Shown here in pieces: positions 1 through 58,003 of a DNA stretch of 64,000 bases. Position numbers and translations under genes: made by a program. The stretch comes from Bacteroidetes bacterium ADurb.Bin139 (GTDB lineage Bacteria > Bacteroidota > Bacteroidia > Bacteroidales > UBA932): contig MWDM01000002.1 of assembly GCA_002070565.1 (NCBI GenBank), forward strand, positions 1 to 64,000. The letters run 5' to 3'. The notes below the pieces were generated by a model that was given only the letters and a program-made list of their open reading frames with translations, made no database searches and was not told the origin of the DNA. Position 1 is the first letter of the stretch. The number at the start of each line of letters is the position of its first letter.

Positions 1-688
1 GTACCGTGCCCAGGTTGGCTATCCCCTTGGATATTTCTACGGATACAAGACTGCCGGCGTATTCCAGAACTGGGACCAGGTAAACAACACGGCTGCCAAA
101 TACGACGGAGCCAAACCCGGAGACCTGATCTTTGTTGACAGCGACGGCGACGGCAAGATTACCGAAGATGACCGCACCATGCTTGGCAGCGGACATCCCG
201 ACTTCCTGCTGGGATTCAATTTGTATTTTGCATGGAAAGGACTGGACTTCAGTATTACCGGTTCAGGTGCCTTTGGACAGGAGATTGCAAAATCCTACCG
301 TTCATTTGCCGACTCTCCCCTGCAAAACTTCACCACCGACATTTTCGGACGCTGGACGGGTGAAGGCACTTCCAACAAGTTGCCCCGCCTGACCACAGGA
401 AGCAACCTCAACTGGCAGAATATCTCCGATATTTATATTGAAAAAGGAGACTATGTGAAGATCCAGAATATCCAGATCGGGTACGATTTCAAACAGGCTT
501 TCCGCAAATTGCCTTTCGGGCAGCTCCGTTTGTATGTTTCTGCGCAGAACCTTTACACCTTTACCAATTATTCCGGACTCGATCCCGAGATCGGATACGG
601 ATATGATCAGGGCTGGGTACAGGGAATCGACCTTGGTTACTACCCTGCACCCCGTACGTATATGGTAGGTTTAAATCTTAAATTTTAA
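1..688 (+). CDS. SusC/RagA-family TonB-dependent outer-membrane transporter, C-terminal part
   Basis: This is the last 228 residues of a SusC-family glycan transporter; the plug and most of the barrel lie before the window. The frame is open from base 2. Seen: an acidic DSDGDGK loop close to the window start, a GSGHPDFLLGF-like strand, an IYIEKGDYVKIQNI segment typical of late SusC barrel strands, and a C-terminus ending GLNLKF with the terminal Phe expected of an outer-membrane barrel. SusC proteins import oligosaccharides through the outer membrane with energy from TonB. The susD gene begins 12 bases downstream, so the two are almost certainly one operon. The substrate cannot be read from this fragment. 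Confidence 0.95.
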   Translation, partial: YRAQVGYPLGYFYGYKTAGVFQNWDQVNNTAAKYDGAKPGDLIFVDSDGDGKITEDDRTMLGSGHPDFLLGFNLYFAWKGLDFSITGSGAFGQEIAKSYRSFADSPLQNFTTDIFGRWTGEGTSNKLPRLTTGSNLNWQNISDIYIEKGDYVKIQNIQIGYDFKQAFRKLPFGQLRLYVSAQNLYTFTNYSGLDPEIGYGYDQGWVQGIDLGYYPAPRTYMVGLNLKF

Positions 689-700
689 TTGTAATACAGT

Positions 701-2473
701 ATGAAAAAGATATTATTCATAGCACTAGCTGCCCTGCTGTTTTCGAGTTGTGAAGCTTTCCTTGACACGGAGAGTTACACCAAGAAAAACACCGGTAACT
801 ATCCGAAAACGGCAGACGATGCCATCCAGATGGTTACCGGGGTGTACGCCACCCTCAACAGGGTGCTTGCAAACTGTGGAAACTCCTACTATTTTGCAGC
901 TCAGCTCCTGTCAGACGACATGTTCGCAGGTGGCGGTGAGAACGACAAGCACTGGACCAGTCTGGAACACCTGATGTACGTAGACCTGAACCAATACAAC
1001 AGTTTCTGGTCAGACAGGTATTCCGGAATCAGTCGCGCCAATATGGCCATTGCAAACCTGGATAAGGTGGAAGACGAGAAACTGCGTAACCAGCTAATGG
1101 GAGAAACCCTGTTCCTCAGAGCCCTGTTCTATTTTGAACTGGTGCAAATGTTCGGGGATGTTCCCCTGATCACCCAGGTTCCTCAAAGCGTATCCGAAGT
1201 TGCCGAGTATCCGGCCCAGTCAACCCAGGAAGAGATTTTCGCATTCATAGCAGCCGACCTGAAGAAGGCTTCCGATATCATGCCTAACGATAAATGGAAT
1301 GCCACCGTCTCCGGAGAAGGCCATGCCACACGCTGGGCTGCACAGGCCCTGCTGGCCCGCGTCTTCCTCTTCTACACCGGATTCTACGGCAAGACAGAAC
1401 TGCCCATGATGGACGAAGAGTTCAAAATTTCAGGATCTGTTACAAAAGCAGAGGTGATAGCCGGCCTGGAAGATTGTATCGCCAATAGCGGCCACTCCCT
1501 TGCCAATGATTTCCGCAGGTTATGGCCCTATAGCAACTCTCTGAGTGCTAAAGACTACGATTATGTAGCAGATCTTAAAAGTAAGGGCGAGTACTGGCTC
1601 AAGGACGGAAGCAATCCCGAAACTGTTTTTGCCATCAAATGTTCGCACCTGGCCAGCTGGAGTACCACAGTAGGCTATTCTAACCAGTACCTGCTTTTCT
1701 TTGCCATCCGCAATGCAGGGACCAGTGATCAGTATAAGAACCTATTTCCTTTCGGACAGGGATGGGGTGCCGGAACGGTTAATCCCAAGCTCTGGGATGA
1801 CTGGGCCACACAGGAACCCACAGACAAGCGCCGCAAGGGATCCATTCTGGCTGCTGCAGACAGACCAAACTATGTCTATGGGGCAGACGCTCTGATGGAA
1901 GAAACCACTTACTGGCAGAAGAAAGTGATTGCCATCACCGGAGCCAAGGAATACGAACCGGACGGCAGCATAAAAACGCTGTATAACAGCTTTACCTCTT
2001 CTACCGAGTACTATGGTGACGGAGAATCGGACGACTTCCAGCTTGCACACGAAACCGACGTTATCCTGATCCGGTTTGCCGATGTATTGCTTATGCATTC
2101 CGAATTGACCGAAACAGCCAACGGCATAAATCAGGTTCGTGCCCGTGCAGGCCTGCCTGCCGTAAGCTATTCATTCCCGGCCCTTCAAAAGGAACGCCGG
2201 TTTGAACTTGCCTTTGAAGGCCTTCGCTGGGGAGATATGAGGCGCTGGGGTGACAATTATGCCATCAGTGCCCTAACCGGACAGCTGGGTCAAACGATCT
2301 GGAACCGTGGTGTACAAAACGTTATGAAAGACCAGGGAGCCGGCTACTCTGCCCGTTACCAGGCAACCCGCGGATTCCTGCCTATTCCCTCTTCTGAAGT
2401 GGACCTTTCCGATGGTGTGTTAAAACAGAACCCGGGCTGGGGCACAGATGCCGTGTTCGGAAGCTGGAACTAG
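701..2473 (+). CDS. SusD/RagB-family nutrient-binding outer-membrane lipoprotein
   Basis: A 590-residue surface lipoprotein that caps the SusC channel and binds the incoming glycan. The N-terminus has a signal peptide with the lipobox LFSSC (Cys17). SusD features follow: ANMAIANLDKV and GETLFLRALFYFELVQMFGDVPLI (the TPR-like helical scaffold), and near the C-terminus RVRARAGLPAV, ERRFELAFEGLRWGDMRRW and a GFLPIPSSEVDL ending. The length is a little above the usual 500-570. It sits 12 bases after the SusC stop and 29 bases before a third lipoprotein gene, a standard susC-susD-accessory order. No enzyme of known glycan specificity lies directly in this operon. Confidence 0.96.
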   Translation: MKKILFIALAALLFSSCEAFLDTESYTKKNTGNYPKTADDAIQMVTGVYATLNRVLANCGNSYYFAAQLLSDDMFAGGGENDKHWTSLEHLMYVDLNQYNSFWSDRYSGISRANMAIANLDKVEDEKLRNQLMGETLFLRALFYFELVQMFGDVPLITQVPQSVSEVAEYPAQSTQEEIFAFIAADLKKASDIMPNDKWNATVSGEGHATRWAAQALLARVFLFYTGFYGKTELPMMDEEFKISGSVTKAEVIAGLEDCIANSGHSLANDFRRLWPYSNSLSAKDYDYVADLKSKGEYWLKDGSNPETVFAIKCSHLASWSTTVGYSNQYLLFFAIRNAGTSDQYKNLFPFGQGWGAGTVNPKLWDDWATQEPTDKRRKGSILAAADRPNYVYGADALMEETTYWQKKVIAITGAKEYEPDGSIKTLYNSFTSSTEYYGDGESDDFQLAHETDVILIRFADVLLMHSELTETANGINQVRARAGLPAVSYSFPALQKERRFELAFEGLRWGDMRRWGDNYAISALTGQLGQTIWNRGVQNVMKDQGAGYSARYQATRGFLPIPSSEVDLSDGVLKQNPGWGTDAVFGSWN

Positions 2474-2502: not shown

Positions 2503-3339
2503 ATGAAAAAAAGTTTAATCCTTGCGATTTTTGCCGTTTTTGTACTTCTTTCTGCTTGTCAGCCCGTCGAGATCAGACAGGAACTCAAGGGCGGAATAAC
2601 GGAAAGCCAGCTCAATATCTCTGCGGTTCCGCAGGTGAGGGACGGTAAAAACTCCAACTACATTGACCTGAACAGCGATGGCAACGCCTGCCTCTCATCC
2701 TGGGACTTTGGCGTTGGCCTGTTCGTGGGAACCAAAGGAACTGTCAAGGTGATGATGAAAGGACCCAACGACATCATTTTCACCGGCCTGAACGCAGACG
2801 GTACAAAGATTACAAAAACATTGACCGTACAGGTTGATGCATTGTATGACGTGGAACCAGAATGGGCTCTTTTCTGCGGAGCAACCGGAGAAAAGACCTG
2901 GGAATGGGACAATGTTACCGGACCCGGTGTTTGGGGTAACGGCGGTTATAAAGGTTGCGCAGCCCCCTGCTGGTGGGTTGTCTCTCTGGGCGACATCAAC
3001 GGCCAGGCTCCCGGGGAGGGTGCCGGTGCCAGCATGACATTTACCATTGCAGGTGCCCGCCTGATCAAGAACTTCAACGATGGTTCCACAGTTCAGGGAT
3101 CTTTTACCTTTGATATGTCCAAGATCACCCTGGATGACGGTGGCAACGTATGGGCAAAGGGGAAATTGAACACCAAGAACGTCACTGTTCTCTGTGGAAA
3201 ATCCCCTAACGAAGGCGGTGCTCCGGTTAACAACTATGACATCCTCAAACTTACAGAAAACAATATGGTATTGTCCTATCCCGAACCTGGTGTCGGTTCC
3301 TGGGGCACTGCCTGGTTCTGGATGTTCAAGAAGAAATAA
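2503..3339 (+). CDS. SusE/SusF-position surface lipoprotein
   Basis: A 278-residue predicted lipoprotein (lipobox LLSAC, Cys19) third in the susC-susD operon, the slot usually taken by a surface glycan-binding protein. After the anchor there is a PKD/BACON-like beta segment (about residues 35-115), then a Trp- and Gly-rich beta region with repeated W, G and C residues (GVWGNGG, CAAPCWWVVSL) and a C-terminal part ending in PGVGSWGTAWFWMFKKK. The many exposed aromatics fit carbohydrate contact, but that is inference from composition and position. It is not recognised as a named family. A strong terminator follows 15 bases after the stop, closing this operon. Confidence 0.75.
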   Translation: MKKSLILAIFAVFVLLSACQPVEIRQELKGGITESQLNISAVPQVRDGKNSNYIDLNSDGNACLSSWDFGVGLFVGTKGTVKVMMKGPNDIIFTGLNADGTKITKTLTVQVDALYDVEPEWALFCGATGEKTWEWDNVTGPGVWGNGGYKGCAAPCWWVVSLGDINGQAPGEGAGASMTFTIAGARLIKNFNDGSTVQGSFTFDMSKITLDDGGNVWAKGKLNTKNVTVLCGKSPNEGGAPVNNYDILKLTENNMVLSYPEPGVGSWGTAWFWMFKKK

Positions 3340-3402: not shown

Positions 3403-3972
3403 ATGAAAAGAATCTTATTATTACCCTTATTAAGTCTGGTGCTTTTGTCCTGTTCAGAAAGCAGAACTTATGTGATCAACGGCACATTTGAGGATGAAAA
3501 GTATGATGGAGAATATGTGTTTCTTGTCCCATTGGATGGCGTTATGCCCCGTGTCATTGATTCTGTACAGGTAAAAGAGAAGTCATTTGTTTTTACCGGA
3601 AAAGCCGACTCGGCACAGGTGAAGATCATACGCATGCGCCACTTGCTCCGGCTGGATATCCAGGAACTTCTGGTTGTGGTTGAACCCGGCGATATTTGGG
3701 TGCGACTGGATACGGTTAGCGCTGCCGGAGGCACACCTCAAAACGAAAAGCTGCAATCCTGGAAAGAAGTCAAGATGCAGGCAGACCAGACCATGAACCT
3801 GCTAAAAAGAATGAATCAGGCCGGAATGGACCAGCAAACCGCTGCACGTATCATGGAACAATGGGAAAAAGTTCAGGCCGACTTTAAACAGTTCAATCGT
3901 GAATTTATTGATCAGAACCAGGGAACTGCAGTAGGCCGCTTTGTGAACGATATGACTGGAGCCGGTCAATAA
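3403..3972 (+). CDS. DUF4369-like lipoprotein
   Basis: A 189-residue lipoprotein (lipobox VLLSC, Cys17). The core (about residues 22-115: YVINGTFEDEKYDGEYVFL, DSVQVKEKSFVFTGK, LLVVVEPGDIWVRLD) matches the DUF4369 beta domain usually found at the N-terminus of TlpA/ResA-type thioredoxin lipoproteins. Here the thioredoxin domain is missing: the rest is a charged helix (residues 118-180) and the protein ends. No CxxC is present. It is the first gene of an operon with two CxxCH proteins, so a link to thiol or haem chemistry is tempting but unproven. The next gene starts 21 bases downstream. Confidence 0.8.
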   Translation: MKRILLLPLLSLVLLSCSESRTYVINGTFEDEKYDGEYVFLVPLDGVMPRVIDSVQVKEKSFVFTGKADSAQVKIIRMRHLLRLDIQELLVVVEPGDIWVRLDTVSAAGGTPQNEKLQSWKEVKMQADQTMNLLKRMNQAGMDQQTAARIMEQWEKVQADFKQFNREFIDQNQGTAVGRFVNDMTGAGQ

Positions 3973-3993: not shown

Positions 3994-5574
3994 ATGCGTA
4001 AAGGAACAGTAGTAACAATTCTGATGGCCGGTATAGTTGCCGCCGCATGTTTTTTGTTCTTTCTGCTTCATTATCCATACCACAACTTGCTGAAGGAACA
4101 AATGATCCTTTTCCTTCATTCTGAAGAATATTTCCTGACTTACCTTGCCAAACCGGCCTGGCTGTCCTGTTACGCAGGTGACCTGCTTACCCAGTTTTAC
4201 ATACACCCGGCCGGCAGTGCTCTCATAATAACTGCATCACTGCTGGCAGAATGGCTGTTGTTCAGACGGGTGTTCCAAAAATTTGGGATACGTTCCCCGT
4301 TCCCCTCCCTTTTAGCAGCTGCACCGGTTATCATTGAATTTCTTTTCCATTGCGGGTTGCATTATCCTCTGAGCAGCACGTTCTCTACCCTGCTTGCCCT
4401 GGTCACCCTGATCGCCTTTATGCGGTTGCGTTCCAATTCCCTTTATTTTTGGCTGGCCTTTCCTACAGCTGCCATACTGTACCTGCTGGCCGGACACGGC
4501 ATCATCCTTTTTACAGTAGGTTGGCTCATTGGCGGGATCCTGCGCAAAGGCCTGCACCGGTACTTCCTGATTTTGCCGGCTGTCTGCTCTCTGGCGATGC
4601 CTTTGCTGGTGCGCACACTTTTCCTGTTATCTCCGGTGCAGGCATACAGATACCCGATCAGGAAACCGCTTACAGTAAACGTGGACATGACCTGGAAAAA
4701 GATTCTCGAACTGGATTATGAAAGCCAGCAGGGAAACTGGAGCAGGGTGTTGCTCCTGTCCCGTGAATACGCAATGCAGAACAGGATTGCTTCTTATTAC
4801 ACCAACCTGGCACTTTCACAAACTAATCTGATGGGAGAATGGCTGTTTCATTTTTACCAGCCGGGACCGGCCGGACTTTTTCTGCCGGCTACCCCACAAT
4901 CCACCCCGCTGATGATCACCTTTGCCAATGAAGTGTTTTTTTACCTGGGAGACCTGAACATGGCACAACATGCCGCCATGCTGGGCATGATCTTTTCGCC
5001 CTGCCACAGAAGCTCACGCCTGGTAAAAAGACTGGCCGGGATTCACATCGCCATTGGCGACGCACCGGCTGCCGGTAAATACCTGGGGCTGCTGGAAAAA
5101 ACCTTGTTTTACAGAAAGTGGGCTGTAAAGTCACGGGAACTGCAAACCGTGGAGAATATCCCGCTCAGGGAAAAGATCCCTTCCGTAGATACTATAAGGC
5201 TTGCAGATGATTACATCACCTCCCTGGAAATTCTGCTGCAGAGCAATCCGGAGAACAAAATGGCCCTGGATTACCTGCTTTGTTACCATATCTTAAACAA
5301 GGATATACCATCCTTCCGGCAAGCATACGATAAATGGTTCCACCATGCTCATGAAAGAATACCCGGGGTATATGCCCAGGCCCTTATTGTTTCACTTTTC
5401 CAGGAAAAAGCCGACAACGAGGTACTAAAAAAATACAACATGACTACTTCTGTAATAGGTGATTTCATGGACTATACCAGGACTTATGAAGAAGCAGGGG
5501 GTCTTTCTGCCCCCCTGCAGGAACGTTATGGGAACACATTCTGGTTTTATTATCATTTTGCATTAATCCAATAG
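3994..5574 (+). CDS. DUF6057-type membrane protein, copy 1
   Basis: A 526-residue inner-membrane protein. Residues 1-215 hold about six hydrophobic segments; the remaining 300 residues are soluble and look like TPR-type helical repeats (YLGDLNMAQHAAMLGM, RLAGIHIAIGDAPAAGKYLGLLEKTLFYRKWA). The C-terminus is YGNTFWFYYHFALIQ, close to YSGTYWYYLHFR in copy 2 at 7043. I recognise it as the Bacteroidota family called DUF6057, whose function is not known to me. The stop codon abuts the ATG of the CxxCH-propeller gene, implying translational coupling. The same gene pair is repeated directly downstream, so the two proteins probably act together. Confidence 0.8.
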   Translation: MRKGTVVTILMAGIVAAACFLFFLLHYPYHNLLKEQMILFLHSEEYFLTYLAKPAWLSCYAGDLLTQFYIHPAGSALIITASLLAEWLLFRRVFQKFGIRSPFPSLLAAAPVIIEFLFHCGLHYPLSSTFSTLLALVTLIAFMRLRSNSLYFWLAFPTAAILYLLAGHGIILFTVGWLIGGILRKGLHRYFLILPAVCSLAMPLLVRTLFLLSPVQAYRYPIRKPLTVNVDMTWKKILELDYESQQGNWSRVLLLSREYAMQNRIASYYTNLALSQTNLMGEWLFHFYQPGPAGLFLPATPQSTPLMITFANEVFFYLGDLNMAQHAAMLGMIFSPCHRSSRLVKRLAGIHIAIGDAPAAGKYLGLLEKTLFYRKWAVKSRELQTVENIPLREKIPSVDTIRLADDYITSLEILLQSNPENKMALDYLLCYHILNKDIPSFRQAYDKWFHHAHERIPGVYAQALIVSLFQEKADNEVLKKYNMTTSVIGDFMDYTRTYEEAGGLSAPLQERYGNTFWFYYHFALIQ

Positions 5575-7050
5575 ATGAAGAACCTGCTAAAGATACATAG
5601 TTTCATTGTCTTGTTAATCCTTACCGCCTGCGGGAGGTCCCGGGGATTCATCACAGAACAAATTCTGCCACCCATTTATCCGGATTATGCCGGTGTTACC
5701 ATCCCGGTAAACATAGCCCCTTTGAATTTCATGGTTAGCGACGCAAGCGGGCTAAGGGTAAATCTGTCGGTTGGTGCAATGAGCATCAACCTTAAGGGAC
5801 GGGGAAAAATCCGCATACCTATGCGTAAATGGCGCACGTTGCTGGACAAGGCTGTTACCCTTGAAGAAGACATAACGGTCTCTCTACTGGCCAAAATGCA
5901 GGGACAGTGGCACCAATACCTTCCTTTTCCATGGCACGTTACCAGGGACAGCATAGATCCCTTCCTGAGTTACCGCCTGATAGAGCCGGGATATGAAGTG
6001 TGGAAAACCATTCAACTGGCCGAAAGGCACAGTGAGTCGTTTCGTGAAAGGATTATAGCAGACAACCAGCTTACCGGGAACAATTGCATGAATTGCCACA
6101 CCTATGGCAACCAGGATCCCGGTTTGTCGTTTTTCCACCTGCGTGGCCCGGGCGGGGGTACTGTTCTGAACCGTAACGGTGTGCTCAGGAAAATTGACCT
6201 CTTTACCCAGGGAATGCTATCCGGTGTTGTCTATGGCAATTTTCACCCTTCCGGTCGCTATGCCGTATATTCAACCAACCTGGTGCTTCCCGGTTTCCAC
6301 ACAAAAAAAGGAGAACGTTTGGAGGTTTATGACAGCGGATCTGACCTGGTGGTTGTGGATCTGGACCTGAATCAGGTGATCCCGTTTCCCGAAGACTTTC
6401 CCCATGATTTTAGGACGTTTCCGGTGTTTTCGGCATCAGGCGATGCGGTTTATTACTGCAATGCACCCCGGATTACGGTTCCCGACAGTATTTACCACCT
6501 GAGGTATGATTTGCTGAAGATACCTTTTGATCCGGCAACGGGAACCTGGGGTAACAAGGTGGATACCGTGGTCAGGGCCTCGGCCATGGGGTTGTCTGTA
6601 TGCCACCCCAAAACATCCCCGGATGGCAGATACCTGCTCTTTTCCATGGCCCATTACGGGACCTTCCCCATATGGCACCAGGAAACAGATCTGTGGCTGC
6701 TGGACCTGCACTCAGGAGAAACAGACAAGCTGGAAGAGGTTAATTCACCTTATTCCGATACGTACCACAGCTGGTCTTCCAACAGCCGCTGGTTTGTCTT
6801 TGCCAGTAAACGCGATGACGGACTATACGGAAAACCGTATTTTTGTTATGTGGACCTTCGGGGAAAAGCACACAAACCCTTTGTGCTGCCCCAAAAAGAT
6901 CCGCAAAGGTATCACAATACACTTAAGTCATACAATATCCCCGAACTGTCACGGGGTAAGCTGCCTTTTGGCGCATCAGACATAGAGCACCTCTATTTCA
7001 AAGTGCCGGCAGAAAGGGTCAGTATCAAACAAAGCGTAGATCATGAATAA
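5575..7050 (+). CDS. CxxCH-containing beta-propeller lipoprotein (TolB/PD40-like), copy 1
   Basis: A 491-residue lipoprotein (lipobox LILTAC, Cys19). After the anchor comes a conserved PPIYPDYAGVTIP segment and a beta domain; residues 171-175 read CMNCH, a c-type haem attachment motif or possible metal site. From about 220 onward there are WD40/TolB-like blades: FHPSGRYAVYS, FPVFSASGDAVYY, SPDGRYLLFSMAHYG, SYSDTYHSWSSNSRWFVFASKRDDGLYG. It would be a periplasmic or surface-facing propeller carrying one haem. It is coupled to the DUF6057 gene before it and overlaps the second DUF6057 gene by 8 bases. Haem binding is inferred from the motif and its conservation in both copies, not shown. Confidence 0.8.
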   Translation: MKNLLKIHSFIVLLILTACGRSRGFITEQILPPIYPDYAGVTIPVNIAPLNFMVSDASGLRVNLSVGAMSINLKGRGKIRIPMRKWRTLLDKAVTLEEDITVSLLAKMQGQWHQYLPFPWHVTRDSIDPFLSYRLIEPGYEVWKTIQLAERHSESFRERIIADNQLTGNNCMNCHTYGNQDPGLSFFHLRGPGGGTVLNRNGVLRKIDLFTQGMLSGVVYGNFHPSGRYAVYSTNLVLPGFHTKKGERLEVYDSGSDLVVVDLDLNQVIPFPEDFPHDFRTFPVFSASGDAVYYCNAPRITVPDSIYHLRYDLLKIPFDPATGTWGNKVDTVVRASAMGLSVCHPKTSPDGRYLLFSMAHYGTFPIWHQETDLWLLDLHSGETDKLEEVNSPYSDTYHSWSSNSRWFVFASKRDDGLYGKPYFCYVDLRGKAHKPFVLPQKDPQRYHNTLKSYNIPELSRGKLPFGASDIEHLYFKVPAERVSIKQSVDHE

Positions 7051-8809
7051 ATTTTTTAATTCTCTTGAGAAGTCGCTGCCCTTTGTTTTTGGACTATGCG
7101 TTTTCCTTTATTTTGGACTGGTGTACCCGCACCATGTGCATTACCAGGAACAATTCCAGCTTTTTCTGACTACTCCTGCCTTTTTTCTTGAAATGGCTGC
7201 AAAACCTGGAGGAATATCTGATTATCTGGGTACTTTTCTGACACAATTTTTCCTGTTTTCATGGACGGGAGCGGCCATTATTGCCCTGTTGCTGACGGCC
7301 ATGCAATGGCTTATACAGACCATCTCCCATAAAATAAGCCCCGCACGGGCATGGCTAGCCCTGTCCTATATACCATCCGTTTTTTACTGGATACTGCTGT
7401 GCAATGAAAATTTCCTGACCGGGGGCGTAGTTTCCATTCTTGTGGCACTGTGTGTGTGGCTGTTGTATTTCCACATCAGCAAAACCTCCTTCCGAAAGCT
7501 GTATGTTCTTTTTGCTATACCTGTAATTTATTGGATAGCAGGGGGATCAGTAATAATTTTCGCGTTAGGCTGCCTAACCTTAGAATGGTTCAAGGATCGT
7601 TCTGCCAGAGGACGCATTACGGCTACAGCTCTTATCTTGCTCATGCTGGGATTGTGCTTTTTTACAGCCAAAATGATGCAGCCTCAATATCCTTTTGCCC
7701 GGCTGGTTTATGGAACGGATTTTTTTCGTTTCCCAAAATCCTATCCTGCGTGGGTCTGGGTCATGTGGCTTTTCTGCCTGATCATTCCCCTTTCCCGTCT
7801 TGTGCTGCCGTCCGTTTTCAAAAAACCACAAAACCAGACCATGACCCGGGTCATCACATCACTTGTCATTGTGTGCATGGGTACTTATATGATTGTCATC
7901 AACACCGACACGGCCAAGGAAGATATTATGGCCTATGACCATTATGTGAGAATGCAGCAATGGGACAAGGCTATAGCCAGGGCCGACCGTAATACCCCGT
8001 CATCACCGCTTTCTGTTGCCTGTCTGAACCTTTCCCTGTGCAAGAGCGGCATGATGTCCGACAATATGTTCCGCTATTACCAGAATGGTCCGGAAGGGCT
8101 TATACCCACCTTCGCAAGGGATTTCACCATACCTATGGTTACAGGCGAGGTCTATTACCACCTGGGATTCATCAATACAGCCCAGAGATTTGCCTTTGAA
8201 GCCATGGAGTCGTTGCCCAATTACTGGAAAAGCGGACGAGCCCTCAAAAGGCTGGCCGAAACAAACCTGATCAACGGACAGTACCAGGTGGCTCTCAAGT
8301 ACCTCAATATCCTTAACAACACTTTGTTTTACAAGGCCTGGGCCAACTATGTGACACCCTTCCTGGAAGACGAAGCGCTCATAGACGGGCATCCGGAATG
8401 GGGAAATCTTAGAAAACACCGTACCAAAACCGATTTTTTTGATTCGGAACAGGAAAAAGATATGATGCTGGGTATTCTCCTGCAGCAGGACCTGACCCAT
8501 TATATGGCATACGAATATCTGCTGGCCTATTGCCTGCTGACAAAAGACCTGGAGCGTTTTGTACAATATTTTCCCCTGGGCATGGAACTGCATTACGCAC
8601 GATTGCCGTACAGTTACCAGGAAGCCTTACTTTACCACTGGTCAATGAACCATGAGGATCCCTTTCGCACCGTGCCTTATCCAATAAGCGAAGATGTCAT
8701 GCGTAATTTGGCAGCCTATCAGAACCTGTATCTGAATTCATCCGATCCCGAAGAAGTTCTCAAGAAGAATTACTCGGGCACATATTGGTATTACTTACAC
8801 TTTAGATAA
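7043..8809 (+). CDS. DUF6057-type membrane protein, copy 2
   Basis: A 588-residue paralogue of the protein at 3994. The N-terminal 285 residues contain about seven membrane segments; the C-terminal part has the same helical-repeat character (YYHLGFINTAQRFAFEAM, LKRLAETNLINGQYQVALKYLNILNNTLFYKAWA). Shared landmarks with copy 1 are the N-terminal LxYPYHxxxxEQxxLF region, the FYQPGPAGLF/YYQNGPEGLI segment and the aromatic C-terminus. It is about 60 residues longer, mainly in the membrane half. Its ATG lies inside the end of the preceding propeller gene (8-base overlap) and its stop shares one base with the next ATG, so the four genes are tightly coupled. Confidence 0.8.
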   Translation: MNKFFNSLEKSLPFVFGLCVFLYFGLVYPHHVHYQEQFQLFLTTPAFFLEMAAKPGGISDYLGTFLTQFFLFSWTGAAIIALLLTAMQWLIQTISHKISPARAWLALSYIPSVFYWILLCNENFLTGGVVSILVALCVWLLYFHISKTSFRKLYVLFAIPVIYWIAGGSVIIFALGCLTLEWFKDRSARGRITATALILLMLGLCFFTAKMMQPQYPFARLVYGTDFFRFPKSYPAWVWVMWLFCLIIPLSRLVLPSVFKKPQNQTMTRVITSLVIVCMGTYMIVINTDTAKEDIMAYDHYVRMQQWDKAIARADRNTPSSPLSVACLNLSLCKSGMMSDNMFRYYQNGPEGLIPTFARDFTIPMVTGEVYYHLGFINTAQRFAFEAMESLPNYWKSGRALKRLAETNLINGQYQVALKYLNILNNTLFYKAWANYVTPFLEDEALIDGHPEWGNLRKHRTKTDFFDSEQEKDMMLGILLQQDLTHYMAYEYLLAYCLLTKDLERFVQYFPLGMELHYARLPYSYQEALLYHWSMNHEDPFRTVPYPISEDVMRNLAAYQNLYLNSSDPEEVLKKNYSGTYWYYLHFR

Positions 8810-10278
8810 TGAAAAAGAAACTGATCATTCCTGCTTTAGCAGCCCTTCTGCTTTGCAGCAGTTGTGCCGCAGATATTTCCAACGCGGAACTCCTGCCCGG
8901 GTACCCGCCTATTTACCCCGACTATTGCGGAGTGACTGTCCCCTGCAACATAGCTCCCATGCATTTCCAGATGAGCGGCAATGCTATACAGGTGCTGGTG
9001 ATTGCAGAAGGTGCAGACGGTAAAGCAGTCCGGATAAAAACCGGGAAAGTCGTCATCTTTGGAAAGTCAGCCTGGAAAAATCTGATCGGATCCAGTACCG
9101 GATCAGGGATAAAAATTACCGTTCAGGCCAAGTACAAGGATAAAGGCTGGATCAGGTATGCTCCTTTTCCCATTTACGTAAGTCCTGTCCCCATAAACGA
9201 TTACCTGGTTTACCGCCTGGTCGCCCCCGGCTATGAGGTGTACAGCAAGATGGGTATCTACCAGCGTGACCTTTCTTCTTTCCGGGAAACACCCCTGCTG
9301 GAAAACACGCTTATTCCGGGTAATTGTATGAATTGTCATTCTTTTTATGGAAATCATCCTGATAAGATAAGCATCCACATCCGGGGCGAACTGGGAGGAA
9401 CTATTCTTAAAACAGGTGACAAAATAGAAATGTTGAATACCAAAACAGAAGAAACCGGGGGTAATTGCGTATATCCATACTGGCATCCTTCGGGAGAGTA
9501 TGTCGTTTATTCGGTCAACCAGACCATCCAGGCTTTCCATTCCATTAGGGACCATCGCATAGAAGTCATCGATTTGGCATCGGATATAGTGGTTTACCAT
9601 CCGCAAAGCAAACAACTCCTGACCCACGATCTGCTCCGGACAGATGCCTTTGAAACTTTCCCTTCATTTTCGCCTGATGGCAAAACCTTGTATTTCAGCT
9701 CCTCCCAATATCAGAACATTCCTGAAGGTTACGACAGGATCCGCTACGACCTGTGTGCTATCGCCTTCGATCCCCAGAGCGGAACGTTTGGCGATCATGT
9801 TGACACCCTGATACATGCCGCTGCCATGGGTAAAAGCATATCCTTCGCCAGACCATCACCGGATGGAAGATACATCATGTTTACCCTGTCTGATTATGGC
9901 AACTTCTCCATTTGGCACAAAGAAGCAGATTTGTGGCTCTATGATCTGGAAGATGGATCGCTTCGGGAAATGAAAGAAGTGAACAGCGACGATGTGGAAA
10001 GTTACCACAGCTGGTCGTCAGAAGGCACCTGGTTTGTCTTTAGCAGCCGGCGCCTGGACGGACTCTATACAAGACCTTTTTTTGCAAGTATTGATAAAGA
10101 GGGGAACATCACCAAGCCTTTCCTTTTGCCACAGAAAAAACCCCTGGAATTTTACACCATGAACTTATTTTCGTATAATGTTCCCGAGTTTATCACAGAG
10201 AAGGTGGACTGGGATCTTAAAGAGGTTGAAAAGGCCCTGACTACAGGACAAAGAGACAAGGTCGAGATCCGCAGATAA
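8809..10278 (+). CDS. CxxCH-containing beta-propeller lipoprotein (TolB/PD40-like), copy 2
   Basis: A 489-residue paralogue of the protein at 5575, with lipobox LCSSC (Cys19). Conserved points between copies: PPIYPDYCGVTVP, the N-C-M-N-C-H motif (haem-type Cys173, Cys176, His177), HPSGEYVVYS, SPDGRYIMFTLSDYG, FSIWHKEADLWLYDLEDG and SYHSWSSEGTWFVFSSRRLDGLY. The second copy has extra Cys near the N-terminus (DYCGVTVPC) that copy 1 lacks. Retention of CxxCH while surrounding residues differ argues that the motif is functional. The TAATG stop/start overlap with the DUF6057 gene shows coupling. The partner sugar, protein or electron carrier is unknown. Confidence 0.8.
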   Translation: MKKKLIIPALAALLLCSSCAADISNAELLPGYPPIYPDYCGVTVPCNIAPMHFQMSGNAIQVLVIAEGADGKAVRIKTGKVVIFGKSAWKNLIGSSTGSGIKITVQAKYKDKGWIRYAPFPIYVSPVPINDYLVYRLVAPGYEVYSKMGIYQRDLSSFRETPLLENTLIPGNCMNCHSFYGNHPDKISIHIRGELGGTILKTGDKIEMLNTKTEETGGNCVYPYWHPSGEYVVYSVNQTIQAFHSIRDHRIEVIDLASDIVVYHPQSKQLLTHDLLRTDAFETFPSFSPDGKTLYFSSSQYQNIPEGYDRIRYDLCAIAFDPQSGTFGDHVDTLIHAAAMGKSISFARPSPDGRYIMFTLSDYGNFSIWHKEADLWLYDLEDGSLREMKEVNSDDVESYHSWSSEGTWFVFSSRRLDGLYTRPFFASIDKEGNITKPFLLPQKKPLEFYTMNLFSYNVPEFITEKVDWDLKEVEKALTTGQRDKVEIRR

Positions 10279-10304: not shown

Positions 10305-12020
10305 ATGAAGAAAATTATACTGTCATTGTTGTGCCTGTCGTTTTTAATTCAGGCAGGGGCACAACATTATAAGAATTTCAAGGTATCTGTCTATACGCGC
10401 GCCTATGAAGTGGAGAAAATGAAAGACAGCCACTGGCTGGATTCCACCTGGAGGATCATTTCTGCGCAGGTTCAACCCGACAAGATCTACCTGGAAACAC
10501 ACCGCGACCTGCTGATTGTTCCGGATGCCACCCTGCGTAAAGCCATTCGCTTTTTCAGGGAAAAAGGAATGGAAGTAGGCGGCGGCATAACCTATACCAT
10601 TGATGAATCAAACAGTTTCGAGACTTTTTGTTATACCAACCCGGAACACCGTAAAAAAGTGCAGGAAATTGCTGAACACACAGCCCGCTACTTTGATGAT
10701 TTTATCCTGGATGATTTCTTTTTTACCAGTTGTAAATGCCCCCTTTGTATCGAGGCCAAAGGCGGCATGAGCTGGACACAATACCGTCTGAAACTGATGA
10801 CCGAGGCAGGTAAAAGCCTTATTCTTGATCCGGCACGCAAAGTCAATCCCAATGTCCGCGTGATCATCAAGTATCCCAACTGGTACGATCATTTCCAGGG
10901 TCTTGGATTTGACCTGGAACACGGCCCTGCTTTATTTGACGGGGTGTGGACCGGAACAGAAACGAGGGACCCTTCTTCTGCTCAACACCTGCAGAACTAT
11001 TTAAGTTATAATGTTTTCAGATACCTGGATAATCTGCGACCGGGATACAATTTCGGAGGCTGGGTGGATAGTGGCGGTTCCCATATGGGACTGTACCGGT
11101 ATGCAGAACAACTATGGCTTACCCTTTTTGCCAAAGCACCTGAAATTACCCTTTTCGCCTACAACCAGCTGCTCCGTCAGCCCGAGCTGGGTAAAACAGC
11201 AACAGAAACCTTCCTCCTTACAGATCAGTTTCTGGGAGAGCTGGGCAAACCAAAAGGCATCGCTTCGTACAAACCATTCCACGCCACAGGAGAAGATTTC
11301 CTGCAGAATTACCTGGGTATGATAGGTCTGCCCATGGACATGCTCCCCTATTTCCCTGTCGACAGGAAAGTGGTCCTGCTGACGGAACAGGCAAAATCTG
11401 ATCCTTTAATTGCCAGTAAAATCCGGGAGCAACTCCTGCGTGGGGGCGACGTTGTTGTTACTACAGGCCTGGTAAAAGCCATCCCGGATCAGATCGCCAC
11501 GATTGCCGAGGTCCGATGCTCCGACCTGAAAGCACTTATCGACGATTTTGGATGGCACGGCAAGAGTACCAGGCCGCTACTCATTCCGCAGGTGCATTAC
11601 CTGACCAATGATTCATGGGAGGTTGTTTCTGCGGGTAATCCCCTTACAAAAGGGGTAATCGGTTATCCCATACTGCTCAGATGTGCTTATGCCAAAGGAA
11701 ACATGTACATACTTACCATCCCCGACTCTTTTGCAGACCTTTATGCATATCCTGACAAAGCCCTGAACATGATCCGGCTTATCATGAGCAAGGACCTGGA
11801 CATCCGTATTGAAGGCCCTTCCATGGTTGGTTTGTTTGTTTACGATAATGGAACTTTCATTGTGGAATCTTTTCTGGATGAACCGGTTACTGTCTATGTA
11901 GCACTTACCGGCGGGCAGGGAAATATTACGGAATTGACAGAAAATAAAGTATATTCCATAGAATCAAATAAGTTTTCCATTACACTGGAACCCCACACTT
12001 TTAAGGTTTTCAAAAAATAA
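10305..12020 (+). CDS. Secreted glycosidase-like protein of unknown family
   Basis: A 571-residue protein with a signal peptide ending around Ala-Gly-Ala-Gln (residue 20). The N-terminal 330 residues look like a (beta/alpha)8 barrel: KIYLETHRD, GMEVGGGITYTID, FILDDFFF, NVRVIIKYPNW, GVWTGTETRD. The acidic pair Asp136-Asp137 in LDDFFF and Glu219 are candidate catalytic residues. A cysteine cluster TSCKCPLC (143-148) right after LDDFFF could bind metal. Residues 340-470 resemble a glutamine-amidotransferase-like or trimerisation domain (VVLLTEQAKSDP, RGGDVVVTTGL), followed by a C-terminal beta domain. It is the last gene of the DUF6057 operon. I cannot assign a GH family. Confidence 0.6.
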   Translation: MKKIILSLLCLSFLIQAGAQHYKNFKVSVYTRAYEVEKMKDSHWLDSTWRIISAQVQPDKIYLETHRDLLIVPDATLRKAIRFFREKGMEVGGGITYTIDESNSFETFCYTNPEHRKKVQEIAEHTARYFDDFILDDFFFTSCKCPLCIEAKGGMSWTQYRLKLMTEAGKSLILDPARKVNPNVRVIIKYPNWYDHFQGLGFDLEHGPALFDGVWTGTETRDPSSAQHLQNYLSYNVFRYLDNLRPGYNFGGWVDSGGSHMGLYRYAEQLWLTLFAKAPEITLFAYNQLLRQPELGKTATETFLLTDQFLGELGKPKGIASYKPFHATGEDFLQNYLGMIGLPMDMLPYFPVDRKVVLLTEQAKSDPLIASKIREQLLRGGDVVVTTGLVKAIPDQIATIAEVRCSDLKALIDDFGWHGKSTRPLLIPQVHYLTNDSWEVVSAGNPLTKGVIGYPILLRCAYAKGNMYILTIPDSFADLYAYPDKALNMIRLIMSKDLDIRIEGPSMVGLFVYDNGTFIVESFLDEPVTVYVALTGGQGNITELTENKVYSIESNKFSITLEPHTFKVFKK

Positions 12021-56419: not shown

Positions 56420-58003
56420 ATGAATAAGGATTACAGGAAAAGAATGATCCTGCTGATGGCTGTCTCACTGCTTTTCAGAAGTACAATGGCAGTCCTGACA
56501 GAGCTGGGTAACGACGAGGTGTACTATTGGACCTATGCCTTGTTCCCGGACTGGAGCCATTTTGACCACCCGCCCATGCTGGGATGGATTATACAGCTAT
56601 TTACCTGTAACCTCAGGTGGGATAGTTCGTTTGCCCTGCGATTGCCCTCACTTGTACTGGGAACCTTAAACACCTGGCTCATCTACCGTCTTGGGAATCT
56701 GCTCAAAGGTCCGAAAACCGGCTGGTACAGTGCCCTGCTTTACACAGGTTCGCTGTACGCTGCCATCATAGCAGGAACTTTTGTCATGCCTGATACACCG
56801 CTCAGTACTTTTTACCTGGCAGCCTTATACAGCTTTTTTAAGGCATTTGGTCTTGATGCAGACGGAAAGGAAGAAACGGTTCCTGTGCATTTCCTGTGGG
56901 CCGGTCTTTTTACCGGGATGGCCATGCTCAGTAAATATTCCGGCATTTTTCTCTGGGTCGGGGCTATGCTTTACGTGATGTTCTACCGGAGGAAAACCTT
57001 GAAAGAGCCGTGGTTGTGGGCCGGAATGACGGCTTCCCTGCTTCTGTTCCTGCCCGTGTTGATCTGGAACTTGTCCGGGGACATGTCCAGTTTTGCTTTT
57101 CATTCGGAACGCATATCTTTTTGGGGAGAGGGACTCAAACCTTTTTATTTCCTGAGGGAAGTGTCCGGGTTGTTCCTGTACAACAATCCCGTGAACGTTT
57201 TTCTGATGATCTGGTCTCTGTTCCATTATACCAGGCATAGACGGCAAAAAGGTGACCGGATGTTGCCTTTGGAGCGGGGCGCATTCCGTATGATCATGAC
57301 CCAGTCGGTGCCTATTATTGCCTTGTTCCTGTTCTTTTCGCTTTTCCGTGAAACCCTGCCACACTGGAGTGCTCCGGGATTCTATTCCCTGATACTGCTG
57401 GCTGCTGCTGTGGCCGATCACACAGACCTGCGCTGGCCCGTTACATTGTCCCCTGCGATTCTTGCCGTTGTGGTGCTGTTGTCATTGGTCCAGATAAGGA
57501 CCGGGTTCATACCACTTAGGGAAGTTGCCCCACATGGGGAAGTGTCCCCGGAAGATCCCTCCAGGGAGCTGGGACGGTTTGATTTTACGCTGGATATGTA
57601 CGGATGGACTCAACTGGGTAATCATTTCAAACAATTGAAAACTAAGCAGGAAACACTTTACCTGGAAAGCGGAGGCAGGCAGGGAATGCCCCCGGGCAGT
57701 GCCATTCTGGCAACACGCTGGTTTCCCGGTGCTCACATAGATTATTATGTGGCCCGCCCGGCCGGTACGGTTGTTAAAACAACGGGGCCCCTGCAAAGAA
57801 CCCATAAATACGAACAGATTACCAGGAAAAGAGGGGGGATAGCCCCAAAAGAACCACTGTATTACATTGAATCAAGCCGTTTCCCGGAAAACCTTTCCGG
57901 GTCTGTTCCGCTTGACACTTTTTTTGTGCAACGGTCGGGTAAGCCGGTGATCCGGTATGTGGTCCACCGGATCTCCGACATCGCTGATTTCAGGGCAGAG
58001 TGA
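56420..58003 (+). CDS. ArnT/PMT-like glycosyltransferase (GT39/GT83 type)
   Basis: A 527-residue inner-membrane glycosyltransferase of the GT-C fold using a lipid-linked sugar donor. The first periplasmic loop has the catalytic acidic pair and His group GNDEVYYWTYALFPDWSHFDHPPMLGWI (about residues 27-55), followed by some ten membrane segments and a periplasmic C-terminal domain (FDFTLDMYGWTQLGNHF, ATRWFPGAHIDYYVARPAG). The ATG at 56420 is chosen because it directly follows the -7 box. The acceptor (lipid A, lipid or protein) is unknown. Its end overlaps the GH3 gene on the other strand by 14 bases. Confidence 0.92.
   Translation: MNKDYRKRMILLMAVSLLFRSTMAVLTELGNDEVYYWTYALFPDWSHFDHPPMLGWIIQLFTCNLRWDSSFALRLPSLVLGTLNTWLIYRLGNLLKGPKTGWYSALLYTGSLYAAIIAGTFVMPDTPLSTFYLAALYSFFKAFGLDADGKEETVPVHFLWAGLFTGMAMLSKYSGIFLWVGAMLYVMFYRRKTLKEPWLWAGMTASLLLFLPVLIWNLSGDMSSFAFHSERISFWGEGLKPFYFLREVSGLFLYNNPVNVFLMIWSLFHYTRHRRQKGDRMLPLERGAFRMIMTQSVPIIALFLFFSLFRETLPHWSAPGFYSLILLAAAVADHTDLRWPVTLSPAILAVVVLLSLVQIRTGFIPLREVAPHGEVSPEDPSRELGRFDFTLDMYGWTQLGNHFKQLKTKQETLYLESGGRQGMPPGSAILATRWFPGAHIDYYVARPAGTVVKTTGPLQRTHKYEQITRKRGGIAPKEPLYYIESSRFPENLSGSVPLDTFFVQRSGKPVIRYVVHRISDIADFRAE

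Follow-up and report, generated by a model that had tools for sequence, protein, structure and literature searches.

The window analysed here, 64,000 nucleotides of the Bacteroidetes bacterium ADurb.Bin139 assembly (contig MWDM01000002.1, positions 1 to 64,000), carries two consecutive copies of a two-gene module. In each, a DUF6057 membrane protein (M) is followed by a propeller lipoprotein with one CxxCH motif (P). M and P are obligate partners, paired one to one across Bacteroidales genomes, each M has co-varied with its own P, and the two pairs in the window diverged long ago while keeping their conserved motifs. The two proteins very probably form one working unit, with a function that is predicted only. 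We tentatively favor, at somewhat less than an even chance, the reading that M is a GT-C-like glycosyltransferase and P its obligate periplasmic lipoprotein partner with a cofactor site, the two acting as a cognate pair at the inner membrane.

Two M-P pairs in one gene run

An open reading frame check of the window placed four genes on the forward strand: M1 (3994-5574), P1 (5575-7050), M2 (7043-8809), and P2 (8809-10278). M1 and P1 abut (end at 5574, start at 5575), P1 and M2 overlap by 8 bases, and M2 and P2 overlap by 1 base. An earlier note made from the DNA alone had described this packing, and also a membrane protein with helical repeats followed by a one-CxxCH propeller lipoprotein, twice over; the coordinates confirm the first and the family matches agree with the second. 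The full length of M1 and of M2 matches Pfam DUF6057 (E 6e-126 and 2e-177), and both proteins combine a membrane part with TPR-like repeats. P1 and P2 each have a lipoprotein Cys, PD40 propeller repeats, and a single CMNCH motif (residues 171-175 at 6085-6099 in P1, residues 173-177 at 9325-9339 in P2). The source genome, a draft assembly of 2.18 Mb, has a third M-P pair on a different contig. Scans for promoters and terminators gave results near chance.

The same forward-strand gene run contains a SusC/SusD pair (window positions 1-2473, and also in close relatives). The SusC gene is an end fragment only, as the window starts at the contig edge, and the SusD-like glycan-binding lipoprotein is encoded at 701-2473. 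The module had been said to follow a susCD operon; these genes do lie upstream, but two lipoprotein genes intervene. The first (2503-3339) has no family match and is kept after SusD in many M-P loci. The second (3403-3972) encodes a DUF4369 lipoprotein and is the gene directly upstream of 28 M/P runs among those examined. On the 3' side of P2, the forward-strand gene at 10305-12020 encodes a 571-residue exported protein that contains DDFFFTSCKCPLC and is found downstream of the module in near relatives only, at 72-91% identity. It has no match in Pfam, NCBIfam, or PDB, which neither establishes nor rules out its previous description as glycosidase-like. A PMT_2 (ArnT-like GT-C) gene is also present in the window (56564-57067) and is found in most genomes of the genus.

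Pairing, age, and surroundings of the module

We surveyed 296 Bacteroidales genomes for full DUF6057 and for P (P profile at E 1e-60). Both occur in exactly the same 37 genomes; three more with weak DUF6057-like matches only were left out of this number. Taking the best five P and four M per genome, 74 of the 83 P genes are no more than 600 bases away from an M gene, 72 of them in the same orientation, and the copy numbers of M and P are equal in 32 of the 37 genomes. Two of the five mismatches (G571 and G684) are not meaningful, as the counts there are at least four M and at least five P. Seven genomes have at least one orphan M and at least one orphan P each, and one M and P are separated by a SusCD pair. 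When loci were gathered by way of P, M was the gene directly before P for 102 of 114 P genes. P is likewise next door in 25 of the 27 loci found via M alone, which were picked without regard to CxxCH, and nearly all P genes beside M-anchored matches show CxxCH in the available stretch. The arrangement recurs in many Bacteroidales families, far beyond chance. All 133 aligned P sequences have the His and both Cys of CxxCH. Neither of the two outcomes that the earlier note had named as refuting, homologues that are mostly unlinked or Cys that vary in the wider family, was seen. Linkage and invariant motif together bear out the proposal of a two-component unit under selection, and the earlier interpretation as a whole is partly supported.

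Two M genes have no P nearby (L165, 3296-4768, and L149); the gene after M in L165 encodes another kind of repeat protein, which resembles a sensor propeller. Weak DUF6057 matches were also seen in membrane proteins of about 400 residues from other Bacteroidota (L038-L057), flanked by open reading frames of about 365 and 347 residues. These may be a distant sister family of DUF6057.

The module had been called a tandem duplication. The copies are true homologues in an ancient sense, but M1 and M2 share only 25% identity (E 7e-45) and P1 and P2 38% (E 3e-121), which, with their separate clades, rules out a recent tandem duplication. Because P1 and P2 fall in separate, well supported groups of the P tree, we interpret the tandem of the window as an old arrangement of two specialized pairs. 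The "first position" P clade, to which P1 belongs, comprises 26 rows, among them Bacteroides, Parabacteroides, Tannerella, and Draconibacterium relatives. In the P-collected loci, the order M-P-M-P was seen 22 times and three pairs in a row twice.

Distances between M sequences closely follow those between their P partners (r 0.88, n=98 pairs). In the 13 loci that have at least two pairs, r was 0.92, compared with a mean of 0.32 (maximum 0.83 of 500) after partners were swapped within a locus. Swapping within a locus removes shared species history, and therefore each M evolves with its own P.

Glycan uptake had been suggested as the context of the module, and M-P pairs are often found in such loci. 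The pairs are flanked by SusCD genes and the two lipoprotein genes and, in Bacteroides and Parabacteroides relatives, by genes for GH26, GH130, a 2-epimerase, and an MFS transporter. BF0772 of B. fragilis NCTC 9343 is a characterized GH130 mannosylglucose phosphorylase (PMC8950772), and a GH130 of this kind is located upstream of M-P in one locus (L087). From these neighbors and the BF0772 precedent, the pairs could be accessories of glycan use that serve uptake loci for beta-mannan or similar glycans, for example by sensing or handling imported oligosaccharides. We consider this very improbable. Single M-P pairs make up 42 runs, many with neither SusCD nor a glycoside hydrolase nearby; their neighbors are instead an ABC ATPase, GldB, or housekeeping genes. 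The module is thus often set in glycan-uptake loci, but such uptake is not its function as such. A role in anti-phage defense was rejected, as PADLOC gave no match. A two-domain Rid/chorismatase-like gene adjoins M-P in 18 loci (L087 11471-12589 and, for example, L070 6771-7913). It occurs from Bacteroides to deep Bacteroidales, and its best match is the FkbO/Hyg5 family, far under the cut-off.

Predicted fold of M and a possible sugar transfer

The AF2 model of M2 (pLDDT 95.8, pTM 0.93) has a helical membrane domain up to residue 287 and TPR-like helices thereafter. Foldseek returned no match at E 0.001 and listed only TPR and weak matches, and a second structural aligner was run on its candidates. 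With this aligner, M2 residues 1-292 aligned with Pmt4 at Z 11.4 (270 residues, rmsd 5.6). The other matches of the membrane domain were two further Pmt4 entries, Pmt1-Pmt2 (Z 11.0), yeast OST (9.9), and AftD (9.9), all of them, like the first, below the Z of about 13 from which helical matches are trusted. TPR proteins matched the tail (residues ~290-588), and this part of the assignment is clear. At the profile level, the membrane part of M matched a profile built from PMT_2 proteins of related genomes (E 1.7e-4, 163-208 columns); control profiles (MFS, CcsA, ZIP, AI2E, and an epimerase) gave E 0.036 or worse and the reversed M profile 0.23. Pfam searches with the M proteins of the window and nine further diverse M identified DUF6057 only, apart from sub-threshold noise, and no GT-C family, TMTC included, was matched in ten diverse M. 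A sequence search of solved structures found only a phosphate transporter at E 0.007. Together, the models and profiles support a GT-C-like fold for the membrane domain of M as a prediction.

GT-C enzymes carry a catalytic Asp-Glu or Asp-Asp in the loop past the first membrane helix, and the first Asp is present in all the enzymes compared (PMC7801869). M has Glu at this place in 135 of 141 sequences and Gln at the next position in 123 of 141 (Glu36-Gln37 at 7148-7153 in M2, and residues 35-36 at 4096-4101 in M1). The GT-C Asp is thus missing from the first periplasmic loop, and an acidic residue is kept. M resembles Pmt1, Pmt2, Pmt4, and other GT-C enzymes in its predicted membrane fold, which extends 260-270 residues from the N-terminus, and in this acidic residue. 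It differs from them in having Glu-Gln for Asp-Glu and in giving no significant Pfam GT-C match. Because the catalytic Asp is Glu in M, we liken M to GT-C enzymes and make no claim of proven membership.

The closest known layout is that of TMTC1-4 of animals and TMTC-like bacterial proteins, which are O-mannosyltransferases with a membrane part followed by lumenal or periplasmic TPR (PMC7801869). M is predicted to have the same order of a GT-C-like membrane part and a TPR domain. Unlike the TMTC proteins, it has no TMTC Pfam match and no DD motif, and its gene is paired with that of a propeller lipoprotein. As far as sequence can tell, M would work in the manner of GT-C enzymes, and with its TPR tail it would have the TMTC layout. 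Since M is most like GT-C glycosyltransferases with such a tail, we favor sugar transfer at the periplasmic face over electron transfer.

Each M would act with its cognate P as a single unit on the periplasmic side of the inner membrane. We infer that the membrane domain of M may take a sugar off a polyprenyl-phosphate carrier via the conserved Glu of the first periplasmic loop, and that its C-terminal TPR domain may hold a protein partner. P, a putative periplasm-facing TolB-like propeller lipoprotein, would be the dedicated partner, either as acceptor or as adaptor for a client, with its invariant CxNCH/His site, probably in the central channel, binding metal or haem. The window would then encode two specialized, anciently diverged units of this type in one operon-like run.

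The M-P pairing, the partner co-variation, the fold and profile matches of M, the loop Glu, and the conservation and facing of P argue for the GT-C reading. The Z of about 11 where about 13 is trusted, the null Foldseek and Pfam GT-C results, and the Glu in place of Asp count against it. There is also a difficulty with the first-position lineage. Membrane helices equivalent to about residues 241-280 of M2, and partly to 181-240, are lost in 18 of 29 first-position M, and M1 is one of the short proteins, lacking those at 241-280. The membrane domain of these copies thus lacks a portion of its second half, which is difficult to reconcile with catalysis by them; all 18 shortened proteins retain Glu36-Gln37.

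Among 5.39 million open full-text papers, none names DUF6057 or PF19529. The present analysis gives the family a fold-level hypothesis and an obligate partner. If the GT-C reading is right, gut Bacteroidales have a dedicated GT-C-like transferase whose partner is built in, also in a B. fragilis gene cluster of the mannan type, and this bears on which enzymes glycosylate exported proteins in the Bacteroidetes phylum.

The propeller lipoprotein and its CxNCH site

The model of P2 (pLDDT 95.2) consists of a small N-terminal domain and a propeller at residues ~130-462, which has six blades judging from strand order. Its fold matches were TolB (Z 26.6 over ~270 residues), the propeller of hydrazine synthase alpha (Z 23.4), and thiocyanate dehydrogenase (Z 17), and the prediction of a TolB-like fold is supported. 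P shares with TolB the propeller fold and a periplasmic location. It differs in being a lipoprotein with CxNCH, in its TolB family score (39.4 bits against a cut-off of 343, outside the family), and in its context, as Tol-Pal genes are absent among the neighbors found. A sequence search of solved structures with P returned weak PD40 or TolB stretches only, and a literature search for CxxCH propeller lipoproteins found none. Few acidic residues follow the lipid Cys of P, in contrast to SusD of these loci, which makes a periplasm-facing orientation of P probable.

Six residues of P are invariant (C173, C176, H177, R192, H226, and N457) and H400 is nearly so. Blade 1 spans residues 173-210, and its first strand starts with CxNCH (173-177); residues 173-180 are modeled as a beta strand at high pLDDT, with no helix. 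By strand order, the first strands of blades 2, 5, and 6 carry H226, H400, and N457, either within the strand or at its end. In propellers, the first strands of the blades line the central channel, so CxNCH, H226, H400, and N457 may meet there.

At CxNCH, we give about equal odds to haem c and to a different metal or thiol site. The haem option draws on the distribution of cytochrome c maturation genes. PF01578 is present in 36 of 37 module-bearing genomes and in 206 of 259 others (p 0.004, kinship ignored). Within the window's family, among genomes at least 84% complete, the numbers are 9 of 9 with the module and 6 of 14 without it (p 0.006, kinship again ignored). PF01578 was also found in 46 of 48 further module-bearing genomes, some of which may recur between sets, and in two DUF6057 genomes from outside the order. 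CcsA was undetected in three module-bearing genomes (G600, G726, and G739), apparently draft assemblies. In the source genome (2.2 Mb), locus L170 on contig C29 (1569-4406) carries a compact cytochrome c maturation cluster that encodes CcsA, a small ResB, and a MauG-like peroxidase in which CxxCH occurs three times.

The module had been described as redox-type. The maturation genes do accompany it, but a redox role is unproven, since the motif is on a propeller beta strand and the cytochrome helix is missing. Such a role would make P a new type of one-haem c-type cytochrome lipoprotein, with haem on CxNCH at the mouth of the propeller or in its channel; M would partner it or anchor it in the membrane. 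The constancy of CxxCH, in the aligned P and in those adjoining M-anchored matches, the association with maturation genes, and the multihaem peroxidase cluster all fit this explanation. The confidently modeled strand, the three genomes that keep the module with no CcsA detected (draft-like as they are), and the lack of resemblance of M to any quinol or haem protein do not, and kinship and genome size may account for part of the association. On balance, we regard it as rather unlikely. P is like c-type cytochromes in having CxxCH in all aligned sequences and maturation genes in the same genomes, and unlike them in where the motif is found, on a propeller beta strand and outside any helix of the cytochrome fold. 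Hydrazine synthase alpha has its haem sites in the middle and C-terminal domains (PMC12758564), whereas the motif of P is inside the propeller itself. If P does hold haem on a propeller strand, it would represent a new type of c-type cytochrome and a new haem-c fold.

The putative channel residues of the P model (C173, C176, H177, H226, H400, and N457) could also form the metal or redox-thiol active site of a periplasmic enzyme, with M as no more than its membrane scaffold. Their positions on the first strands of blades 1, 2, 5, and 6 and the propeller metalloenzyme thiocyanate dehydrogenase among the fold matches are consistent with this. However, it leaves unexplained both the conserved Glu-Gln loop and GT-C-like membrane domain of M and the link with cytochrome c maturation, and we judge it unlikely. 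A combination of the two as a new kind of envelope system, in which a GT-C-TPR transferase depends on a propeller lipoprotein with haem on the CxxCH of an inner blade strand, perhaps for redox-gated glycosylation, appears quite improbable; were both the haem and GT-C readings true, a GT-C-like enzyme would be linked to a haem protein for the first time.

Returning to the preferred reading of M as a GT-C-like glycosyltransferase, we compared the module with the general O-glycosylation of Bacteroidetes, in which exported proteins are glycosylated. That system is described phylum-wide (PMC8729774), whereas DUF6057 is present in 37 of 296 Bacteroidales genomes. M is therefore unlikely to be the general transferase, and we rejected it as the O-oligosaccharyltransferase of the phylum. 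The glycosylation sequon of this system is D-T-[LVI], and its transferase was left unidentified there (PMC8729774). A D-T-[LVI] is found at residues 332-334 of P2 and is kept in 142 of 159 P, where it may be a glycosylation sequon or, equally, structural.
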